Source of the DNA: Bacteroidota bacterium
GTDB taxonomy: Bacteria > Bacteroidota > Bacteroidia > 2-12-FULL-35-15
Reading direction: 5' to 3'
Assembly (NCBI GenBank): GCA_947504725.1
Contig: CANNHN010000011.1
Location: 1-64,000 of the forward strand
Length of the DNA stretch: 64,000 nt
The translations under genes were made by a program, and so were the position numbers. A model generated the notes under the pieces. The model was not told the origin of the DNA, did no database searches, and saw nothing but the letters and a program-made list of their open reading frames with translations. Of the stretch, positions 2,457 through 5,365 are shown in pieces. Every line of letters begins with the position of its first letter. The stretch's first letter is position 1.

Positions 2457-2795
2457 ATGAACGCATTACGCAACAAAGTACAATTGATCGGGAACCTAGG
2501 AATGGATCCAGAAGTGAAATCCTTAGACGGAGGTAAAAAATTAGCTAAAATGAGTATCGCTACCAACGAAAATTACAAAAATGCGAAAGGCGAAAAAGTT
2601 ACCGAAACGCAATGGCATAATTTAATTGCCTGGGGAAAAACTGCTGAAATAGTAGAAAAATTCTTAAAAAAAGGAAGTGAAGTAGCTGTTGAAGGAAAAC
2701 TAATCAACCGTAACTACATCGATAAAGAAGGAATCAAACGTTACGTAACAGAAATTGAAGTGAGCGAAGTATTGATGCTCGATTCTAAAAAATAG
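2457..2795 (+). CDS. ssb: Single-stranded DNA-binding protein
   Basis: A 112-residue OB-fold protein that coats single-stranded DNA in replication, recombination and repair. The family hallmarks are present: an N-terminal NKVQLIGNLGMDPEVK strand, TQWHNLIAWGKTAEIVEKFLKKG in the centre, and VEGKLINRNY. It is shorter than E. coli SSB (178 residues) because the disordered tail with the acidic protein-binding tip is missing; the end is DSKK. The start at 2457 is chosen because homology begins there; the frame stays open to an ATG at 2343, but those 38 residues look unlike an SSB. A Rho-independent terminator follows at 2821. Short SSBs of this kind are common in Bacteroidota, and the genome may hold a second, longer one. 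Confidence 0.9.
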   Translation: MNALRNKVQLIGNLGMDPEVKSLDGGKKLAKMSIATNENYKNAKGEKVTETQWHNLIAWGKTAEIVEKFLKKGSEVAVEGKLINRNYIDKEGIKRYVTEIEVSEVLMLDSKK

Positions 2796-2869: not shown

Positions 2870-3336
2870 TCCAGCCCTTTCGACCGCAGCCTCTTGTCAT
2901 TTCAACCGTAGCCCTTTGTCCTTTCGACCGTAGCCGCTTGTCCTTTCGACCGTAGCCGCTTGTCCTTTCGACCGTAGCCGCTTGTCCTTTCGACCGAAGC
3001 CTTTTGTCATTTCGACCGAAGCGGAGAAATCTAAAACACGAACTGAGCACAAACATAGTACTTGAAAACAATCACTTTCGCCTTGCTTGTCCTTTCGACC
3101 GAAGCGGAGAAAACTAATAGATCTCTCCACTTCGGTCGAGATGACATTCTGCATTAACAAATTCAATATTACGAATCCATATCCTTTCGACCGCAGACTT
3201 TTGTCATTTCGACCGCAGCCTTTTGTCATTTCGACCGAAGCGGAGAAATCTAAAACACAAACTGAGCACAAACATAGTACTTGAAAACAATCACTTTCGC
3301 CTTGCTTGTCCTTTCGACCGAAGCGGAGAAAACTAA
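2870..3336. repeat. REP-like repeat array (22-bp units and a duplicated 116-bp block)
   Basis: From about 2875 to 3002 a 22-bp unit, CTTGTCCTTTCGACCGTAGC plus CG, repeats head to tail with small changes (clear copies at 2937, 2959 and 2981). A block of about 116 bases, 3001-3116, reappears almost unchanged at 3220-3335; it starts at TTTGTCATTTCGACCGAAGC and ends after CGGAGAAAACT. Between the blocks lies an inverted copy, CTCCACTTCGGTCGAGATGA, at about 3125-3144. No open frame here is a credible gene: 22 is not a multiple of three, and the frames that stay open simply translate the repeat. The array abuts the GIY-YIG gene. Confidence 0.9.
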
Positions 3337-3711
3337 AACACAAAAACCATGAAACAACATAATTACTTTGTCTACATCACAACTAATTTCTCTAAAACTG
3401 TTTTATATGTTGGTGTAACAAATTCCTTAGAACAGCGACTAATAGAGCACTATTTAAATAGAGGCAATAAAAATGCTTTTGCTGGGAAATATTATTGCTA
3501 CAACTTACTTTTCTACGAAAGACATGAATATATAACCAATGCAATTGCTAGAGAAAAGCAAATAAAACGATGGAATCGCGAGAAAAAATTGAATCTGATT
3601 ACCATCGAGAACCCGAAACTCAATTTCTTGAACCACAGCATCATGGAATGGAATCCAAATGAGGAATGGACGATTAGATAAATAGTTCTCTCCACTTCGG
3701 TCGAGAGGACA
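3307..3711. repeat. Inverted REP copies framing the GIY-YIG gene
   Basis: Bases 3307-3334 and 3684-3711 are 28-bp inverted repeats with 25 matches, each built around CGACCGAAG and the CGGAGA/TGGAGA step. The left copy ends 14 bases before the start codon at 3349, and the right copy begins 2 bases after the stop at 3681. The unit of repeat, gene and inverted repeat is therefore about 405 bases. It resembles the REP-gene-REP arrangement known for RAYT transposases, but with a different nuclease. Confidence 0.75.
3349..3681 (+). CDS. GIY-YIG nuclease family protein
   Basis: A 110-residue single-domain GIY-YIG endonuclease. The motif is FVYITTN at residues 7-13 followed by LYVGVTN at about 19-25 (YVG replaces YIG). 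Next comes RLIEHY with the conserved Arg and His, then AIAREKQIKRWNREKK, which holds the catalytic-domain Glu and a basic helix. Length and layout match the small stand-alone UvrC-N/UPF0213 group rather than UvrC. Its natural substrate is not known. The gene has no neighbours in its own transcription unit and is framed on both sides by inverted REP copies, with further direct repeats outside. That setting suggests it either spreads the repeats or travels with them; this is inference. Confidence 0.87.
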   Translation: MKQHNYFVYITTNFSKTVLYVGVTNSLEQRLIEHYLNRGNKNAFAGKYYCYNLLFYERHEYITNAIAREKQIKRWNREKKLNLITIENPKLNFLNHSIMEWNPNEEWTIR

Positions 3712-3966
3712 TTTGAGTTTATTGTTTCATTTTGACTTTGTTCCTTTTGTCATTTCGACCCTAGCCTTTTGTCATTTCGACCGTAGCCTTTTGTCATTTC
3801 GACCGAAGCGGAGAAATCTAAAAAAACATGAACTCGGAGATAATAGTTCTCTCCACTTCGGTCGAGAGGACATTTGAGTTTATTGTTTCATTTTGACTTT
3901 GTTCCTTTTGTCATTTCGGCCCTAGCCTTTTGTCATTTCGACCGAAGCGGAGAAATCTAAAAAAAT
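3684..3966. repeat. Duplicated REP block downstream of the GIY-YIG gene
   Basis: A segment beginning ATAGTTCTCTCCACTTCGGT at about 3682 and running to CGGAGAAATCTAAAAA near 3826 recurs from about 3842 to 3963, including the non-REP part with TTGAGTTTATTGTTTCA. The first copy carries one extra 22-bp TTTTGTCATTTCGACCGTAG unit. Each block starts with one repeat orientation and ends with the other. No gene is visible. Confidence 0.85.
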
Positions 3967-4024: not shown

Positions 4025-5365
4025 TTATTCCGTTAAATCAAAATCATCTAAAAATTTTGTTGTGTAATCACCTTTAATGAATTTTTCATCCTTCATTAAT
4101 TTCAAGTGAAATGGGATTGTTGTTTTTACTCCTTCAATTACATATTCACTCAACGCACGGTGCATTTTTGCAATTGCCTCTTCACGTGTTTGTGCAACAG
4201 TAATTAATTTTGCAACCATACTATCATAATTCGGAGGAATCGTATATCCAGCATAAATATGTGAATCAACACGAATACCATGTCCACCTGGGGTGTGCAA
4301 TACCGTGATTTTTCCTGGTGACGGACGGAAATTATTAAATGGATCTTCCGCATTTATTCTACATTCAATTGCATGCAATTGAGGATAATAATTTTTTCCA
4401 GAAATAGGAACGCCTGCAGCAACCAATATTTGTTCGCGTATCAAATCATAATCAATTACTTCTTCAGTAATTGGATGCTCCACCTGAATACGTGTATTCA
4501 TTTCCATGAAATAAAACTTGCGATGCTTGTCAACTAAAAACTCAACAGTTCCAACACCTTCATATTTTACTGCCAATGCCGCTTTAATTGCAGCTTCACC
4601 CATTGCTTCGCGCAACTCATCGGTCATAAATGGAGATGGCGTTTCTTCCGCTAATTTTTGATGACGTCTTTGAATAGAACAATCTCTCTCCGATAAATGA
4701 CATGCTTTTCCATATTGATCGCCTACAATTTGAATTTCAATATGACGTGGCTCTTCAATATATTTTTCCATATACATGGCACCGTTACCAAATGCATTTT
4801 CTGCTTCTTTAAATGCTGAATCGTACAACGCATCCATATCTTCTGCCTTCCAAACAATGCGCATCCCTTTTCCACCACCACCAGCTGTTGCTTTAATAAT
4901 AACAGGATATCCAACTTTCGGAGCTAATTCTTTTGCATGTTCAGCACTTTCCAACAAACCTTCTGAACCAGGAACACATGGAACACCTGCTGCAATCATG
5001 GTAGATTTTGCTGATGCCTTGTCTCCCATCGAGTTTATCATTTCGGGAGATGCTCCAATAAATTTAATATTATGCTCTTGGCAAATCTTAGAAAATTTTG
5101 CATTCTCTGAAAGAAAACCATAGCCTGGATGAATTGCATCTGCATTAGTTATTTCTGCTGCCGAAATAATATTGGGAATATTTAAATAAGAATCCTTACT
5201 TGGTGGAGGTCCAATACAAACTGCCTCATCAGCAAATTTTACGTGCAAGGAATCTTTATCAGCAGTTGAATAAACTGCTACCGTTTTAATTCCCATTTCT
5301 TTGCAGGTACGAATAATGCGTAACGCAATTTCGCCTCTGTTAGCTATTAATATCTTTTTGAACAT
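4025..5365 (-). CDS. accC: Acetyl-CoA carboxylase, biotin carboxylase subunit
   Basis: A 446-residue ATP-grasp enzyme that carboxylates the biotin on AccB using ATP and bicarbonate, the first half-reaction of malonyl-CoA synthesis. The N-terminal [20 protein letters not shown], the glycine-rich ATP loop GGGGKGMRI near residues 163-171, and the [16 protein letters not shown] active-site segment (about 290-305) are all present. The length equals that of E. coli AccC (449). It lies 109 bases after accB on the same strand, and a terminator follows, so it closes the yceD-rpmF-plsX-fabH-accB-accC series. The accB-accC gap contains a small hairpin with ATCCCGC arms. Confidence 0.97.

Follow-up and report, generated by a model that had tools for sequence, protein, structure and literature searches.

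Small GIY-YIG nuclease genes paired with their own (C/T)GTC-tagged REP hairpins: a putative two-part REP unit in Bacteroidota and other phyla

REPs have been sorted into GTAG-tagged and CGTC-tagged superfamilies, the latter including dRS3 of Neisseria, and the CGTC-tagged REPs showed no association with transposase genes (Di Nocera 2013, PMC3733652). Stand-alone prokaryotic GIY-YIG proteins of the Slx1-like kind have been predicted to work in DNA repair, and no connection with REPs was found in the 2006 paper on the GIY-YIG superfamily (PMC1564403). In the open-access literature (most subscription journals and bioRxiv being beyond reach) no earlier link of GIY-YIG proteins to REP, RAYT, REPIN, dRS3 or bacterial MITEs was found. 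Here we describe a small GIY-YIG gene placed between inverted REPs in a window of 64,000 nucleotides (the whole stretch of DNA analysed) from the 3.4-Mb genome G000 of a Bacteroidota bacterium. The features of the locus are as follows.

2457..2795, + strand: single-stranded DNA-binding protein gene (ssb), upstream neighbour; ORF named by reading its protein
2876..3022, + strand: 22-bp tandem array of the REP 5' half, 6.7 copies
3005..3033, + strand: REP copy
3088..3116, + strand: REP copy
3118..3146, - strand: REP copy, 1 nt from 3088-3116, with which it makes an inverted dimer
3185..3237, + strand: 22-bp tandem array of the REP 5' half, 2.4 copies
3224..3252, + strand: REP copy
3307..3335, + strand: bracketing REP on the upstream side, a hairpin tagged with TGTC, 13 bp ahead of the ATG
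3349..3681, + strand: GIY-YIG nuclease gene, small stand-alone (prokaryotic Slx1-like), 110 aa; PF01541 51 bits, model pLDDT 90, nearest solved folds UPF0213/Slx1
3683..3711, - strand: downstream bracketing REP, inverted, 1 bp past the stop codon; 26/29 complementary to 3307-3335
3743..3809, + strand: 22-bp tandem array of the REP 5' half, 3.0 copies
3792..3820, + strand: REP copy
3844..3872, - strand: REP copy, inverted, 23 nt from 3792-3820
3931..3959, + strand: REP copy
4025..5365, - strand: acetyl-CoA/biotin carboxylase-like gene, downstream neighbour; ORF named by reading

The two arms that bracket the 110-aa ORF are 29 nt each, are complementary at 26 of the 29 positions and both carry a TGTC tag. 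The preliminary description had rightly recognised this inverted pair, and its measures need correction: 28 nt, 25 matches and distances of 14 and 2 bases become 29 nt, 26 matches and 13 and 1. The pair scores 21.5, compared with a best score of 12.5 among 2417 control positions of the same geometry in the window. The same repeat also fills the surroundings in direct and inverted copies, as had been described for about 750 bases; the array spans about 1 kb and contains inverted REP dimers alongside many direct copies. A 20-mer of the repeat is present in nine copies with at most 3 mismatches at 3010-3955, and shuffled sequences gave 0. The 5' half of the REP alone has been amplified in tandem at three places near the gene, with a period of 22 bp (about two helical turns).

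The 110-aa protein matches PF01541 across the whole domain (51 bits, E 1.8e-13), and no other family was matched in the Pfam search. In an alignment of 50 relatives, Y9, Y20-x-G22, H34 and E69 are invariant and R30 is nearly so, the GIY..YIG, Arg and Glu of GIY-YIG catalysis all being present. A structure model built from this alignment reached a mean pLDDT of 90, and its nearest solved folds, with modest scores, are the UPF0213 protein 1zg2 and eukaryotic Slx1. The conserved catalytic residues together with the Slx1/UPF0213-like model mark it as a true GIY-YIG protein, a minimal, apparently intact, stand-alone Slx1-like nuclease. Slx1 is a nuclease of branched DNA. GIY-YIG enzymes cut DNA by hydrolysis and are unable to reseal it on their own, and a classical transposase reaction is therefore unlikely; to our knowledge, DNA transposition has not been reported for hydrolytic GIY-YIG enzymes. 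A role in defence was also considered: a PADLOC search with the window protein gave no match, and its Chryseobacterium homologue gave a weak, partial match to UzuA. A PF01797 (Y1/RAYT) profile search of the whole G000 genome returned no match and no Y1 transposase was detected. The earlier proposal that the inverted REPs here surround a nuclease other than a Y1 enzyme is right.

The locus resembles the RAYT/REPtron/REPIN systems in that an inverted pair of tagged, imperfect hairpins encloses the gene, cognate REPs are numerous and dispersed, and REP types are specific to the enzyme. It differs in its enzyme (a GIY-YIG hydrolase instead of an HUH/Y1, PF01797, protein), in its tag, which is (C/T)GTCA instead of GTAG, and in the lack of a detectable Y1 transposase in the genome. 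The window system thus works like a REPtron, while its enzyme and tag place it outside the RAYTs. Repeats of the CGTC superfamily (dRS3, Rickettsia RPE-4/6; PMC3733652) have an unpaired CGTC, TGTC or CCTC tag at one end, a stem of 8-9 bp whose first pairs are A-T and T-A, and a CCA-like tail of three bases, and inverted dimers predominate among them. The window REP shares the unpaired tag. Its copies with GTCATTT have the same first pairs in an interrupted stem, and its inverted dimers lie among many direct copies. Its tail is CTA, and it occurs in a cluster. Free-standing homing endonucleases of the I-TevI type have the same catalytic fold and are likewise selfish-looking genes within their likely target, but the window protein has no NUMOD or DNA-binding extension, lies in no intron or interrupted gene, and has no relatives of its type in the phage records searched. 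Slx1-like/UPF0213 proteins share the minimal GIY-YIG domain of about 100 aa and are the structural neighbours named above, and differ in being described as a probable DNA repair family. Insertion sequences and MITEs also show a gene between terminal inverted repeats and gene-less derivatives, and in Chryseobacterium a discrete unit with terminal inverted repeats was found (see below); the difference from insertion sequences is that there is no known transposase and no target-site duplication was found.

Window copies with GTCATTT have A-T and T-A as their first stem pairs, and a predicted stem of 5 pairs, an internal loop and 2-3 pairs. When folded as DNA, the window repeat leaves GTC unpaired, and several repeat types fold as single-stranded DNA into GTC-hairpin-CT. 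Since the folding energy of the window repeat is no better than that of many shuffles, the predicted hairpin rests on covariation in relatives and not on folding energy in the window. Among 55 distinct 32-nt copies from Chryseobacterium, for most of which the search pattern left the inner 12 bases free, the inner stem covaries from G-C to A-T (p=1.4e-5).

The exact repeat core TCGACCGAAGNGGAGA occurs 31 times in G000, of which 22 are outside the window locus, and 46 times when one mismatch is allowed; the reversed-pattern control gave 0 matches in the same genome. Within the window genus high numbers of the repeat go only with the gene: it is numerous in G000 only (31), and 34 genomes other than G000 and G002 have 0-3. 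In G002, which has 4 repeats, one lies 31 bp from a GIY-YIG orthologue of 78% identity, and ssb is also the upstream neighbour of this gene. Besides UvrC, G000 holds four further small GIY-YIG genes, and the window repeat type is absent at all four of them. One is flanked by its own repeat, GTCATCCCGTGCC..GGCACGGGATCT, a second by another, GTCATTGCGAG..GGCAATCTC, and a third adjoins GTCACCCTGAGCGGAGTCGAAGGG; the fourth adjoins a tRNA-Arg gene.

The generality of this pairing was assessed with 120 small GIY-YIG loci, of which 40 were taken from genomes of Bacteroidia and the other 80 from a scan of the whole collection (Bacteroidota, Chloroflexota, Proteobacteria, Patescibacteria, Elusimicrobia, Cyanobacteria/Melainabacteria, Planctomycetes, Acidobacteria, Nitrospirae, Fibrobacter, Armatimonadetes, Omnitrophota, WOR-3 and others). 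With a score of at least 18 as the threshold, a repeat spans the gene at 89 of the 120 loci (74%) but at only 36 of 890 other ORFs nearby (4%; odds ratio 68, p=1.6e-70), and at only 5% of the small non-GIY-YIG ORFs of the same regions; at this threshold, 26% of the 120 genes have no flanking repeat. The adjacency of GIY-YIG genes and repeats that the preliminary description had proposed to look for is thus largely borne out. Chance pairing, or a property of ORFs in general, is ruled out by the position-based controls and the 890-ORF control. GTCATT is found within 200 bp upstream of 66 of the 120 genes (about 7 expected), and in 45 of the 76 pairs where both tags exist the nearest tags face inward (GTCAT..gene..ATGAC). 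A (C/T)GTCA-tagged hairpin is common to the repeats at these loci. In Neisseria, S. meliloti, N. aromaticivorans and A. lipoferum, all covered in the 2013 survey (PMC3733652), CGTC repeats adjoin or flank a GIY-YIG gene, and in N. aromaticivorans the downstream repeat begins directly at the stop codon of the GIY-YIG gene. Genes of this type occur in none of 50,697 phage records and hardly at all in true plasmids, and horizontal spread therefore looks slow; the plasmid records with a small GIY-YIG gene are mostly chromids or mislabelled chromosomes.

At several loci (L066, L074, L081, L088 and L089) the C-termini of the GIY-YIG proteins apparently run into the REP (..PSTSSG, ..CKNDSHS), and the repeats therefore seem to supply the ORF ends of these proteins. 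Tiny GIY-YIG genes of about 78-93 aa with the motif REKxLKSGxGRE form a third subclass, which lies beside tRNA genes (L033 at G000:C13:807-1025, L072, L077, L084, L086, L091, L092, L093, L099 and L103). Eight of nine classified loci, plus L099 and L033, are within about 65 bp of a tRNA, and several genes sit between partial tRNA duplications. None of the 28 genes of class a is so placed, nor, after reassignment of L099, is any of the other 125 genes of class b.

At the 90 loci where the inverted pair is clear, repeat similarity tracks protein similarity (Mantel r=0.39, p<=0.0005; the largest r in 2000 permutations was 0.18). Diverged GIY-YIG paralogues of one genome have unrelated repeats, and orthologues share their repeat across genomes, as with the GTCATCCCGTGCC type in G000, G008, G016 and G022. 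It is evident that the repeat type goes with the enzyme type and not with the host.

Whether repeat number follows the gene, as the preliminary description had asked, was examined in 169 Chryseobacterium genomes by counting the cognate pattern GTCATTGCGAGN{8,13}GAAGCAATC. The median count is 7 in genomes with an intact gene (n=44), 5 in those with a decayed gene (n=13) and 1 in those without (n=112), a difference with p=2e-13, or p=1e-8 after subtraction of the two flanking copies, by a statistic that ignores kinship. The expectation holds for these medians and fails in G183, G265 and G191, which bear 21-29 cognate REPs and no GIY-YIG homologue of at least 63% identity. These three genomes are candidates for orphan REPs that have outlived a lost gene, yet they weaken the claim that gene and REPs go together.

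At a Chryseobacterium locus between a barnase-like and a barstar-like gene (named by reading), the REP-gene-REP unit is present in some genomes and absent in others. An internal deletion of the gene has reduced it to a REP pair with a gene remnant in L260, and a solo REP remains in L259 and L261. In 12 genomes, the units at this site and at a second chromosomal site have exactly about 398 bp in common, running from the outer GTC tip to the GAC tip, with nothing shared outside. Since the homology stops exactly there, the unit is discrete and has the REP tips as its ends. Many gene copies carry stops; inheritance is mostly vertical at one locus, with frequent loss and decay. No target-site duplication was readable in 50 regions at the barnase-barstar locus in filled, empty, decayed and solo states, and the two-site comparison in the 12 genomes gave none either, the sample holding no recent empty/filled pair. 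At five REP sites of C. elymi, comparison with a closely related genome that is 98% identical to it at the barnase-like locus showed no clean recent insertion; the sites are mostly shared with the relative, or else the intergenic region is replaced.

Two further observations concern the barnase-barstar locus. In L225 (G192), both flanking REPs have the same extra loop insertion of about 24 nt, and the two ends of the unit therefore appear to have been homogenised. Across L216-L265, the intergenic site seems to be occupied alternatively, or in stacked fashion, by the REP-gene-REP unit and a lipoprotein-like gene unrelated to it, and occupants differ even between genomes that are about 94-98% identical around it.

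We propose that the window probably holds one member of a widespread two-part unit, made of an Slx1-like GIY-YIG nuclease and its own REPs and mobilised by the nuclease together with host repair. The nuclease, of about 100 aa, is encoded between two inverted REPs of its own (C/T)GTC-tagged type; it would most likely recognise the REP hairpin where single-stranded or cruciform DNA lets it form, and would nick beside the GTC tag. Host repair, needed at this step because GIY-YIG enzymes cannot rejoin DNA, would then bring the released piece (a REP, a REP pair or the REP-gene-REP unit) to another site, by copying or by reinsertion. In the long run, REPs could be scattered, local arrays built and the gene occasionally moved. 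The pairing, its specificity, the joint occurrence of gene and REPs, the unit ends at the REP tips and the hairpin covariation are observed here, and the cutting, the mobilisation and the repair step are inferred from them. The REP-mobilising unit suggested in the preliminary description is thus upheld as an arrangement, which is recurrent and specific. Mobilisation is the best inference and is partly supported, because no insertion footprint was read, some REP-rich genomes have no close homologue, the correlation is blind to kinship, and the anatomy is also compatible with homing.

Homing into existing REPs is the main rival and explains the anatomy almost as well. The nuclease would cut REPs or REP pairs, the gene would be copied in by recombination across REPs, and the REPs themselves would spread otherwise. 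Homing genes classically lie inside the target that they cut, gene conversion through REP homology would leave unit boundaries at the REP tips just as well, stops in many gene copies are what a homing life cycle predicts, and the sister subclass beside tRNA genes is accompanied by partial tRNA duplications. We nevertheless consider it unlikely, as Chryseobacterium genomes with the gene have more REPs even when the flanking pair is left out, selection should disfavour large numbers of REPs if intact ones are cut, no Y1/RAYT enzyme that could spread REPs was detected in the window's genome, and no other enzyme was found with CGTC REPs in the 2013 survey (PMC3733652).

It is still less probable that the nuclease merely resolves REP hairpins or cruciforms and is kept beside REPs for regulation or genome stability, with no mobilisation. 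Such host maintenance agrees with the repair role predicted for prokaryotic Slx1-like proteins (PMC1564403) and with mostly vertical inheritance at one Chryseobacterium locus. However, a repair enzyme acting in trans has no need to lie between its own substrates, and the specific REP of each enzyme clade, the frequent loss and decay of the gene and its patchy presence all point away from this role. Other insertions are known to favour REPs (PMC3733652), and the gene might therefore be an ordinary passenger in REP-rich intergenic regions; this is very improbable, being already disfavoured by the ORF controls (the repeat pattern at only 5% of small ORFs in the same regions), by the enzyme-REP specificity and by the inward-facing orientation of the pairs.

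On the reading that nuclease and host repair mobilise the unit, a broader proposal follows. Small Slx1-like GIY-YIG nucleases may serve the CGTC-tagged REP superfamily (dRS3 and relatives in many phyla) as its dedicated mobilising enzymes, and there would then be a second class of REP system that evolved independently and uses a hairpin nuclease acting by hydrolysis, together with host repair, in place of a transposase. We find the case for and against this proposal evenly balanced. How CGTC REPs including dRS3 spread was left open in 2013 (PMC3733652), and a nuclease partner in many phyla makes the question testable in vitro. If the nuclease were proven to move REPs, this would count as a new class of mobile system. 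A large and poorly understood nuclease family would then have a role, and the lifestyle of a REP with its enzyme would have arisen at least twice, with unrelated enzymes.
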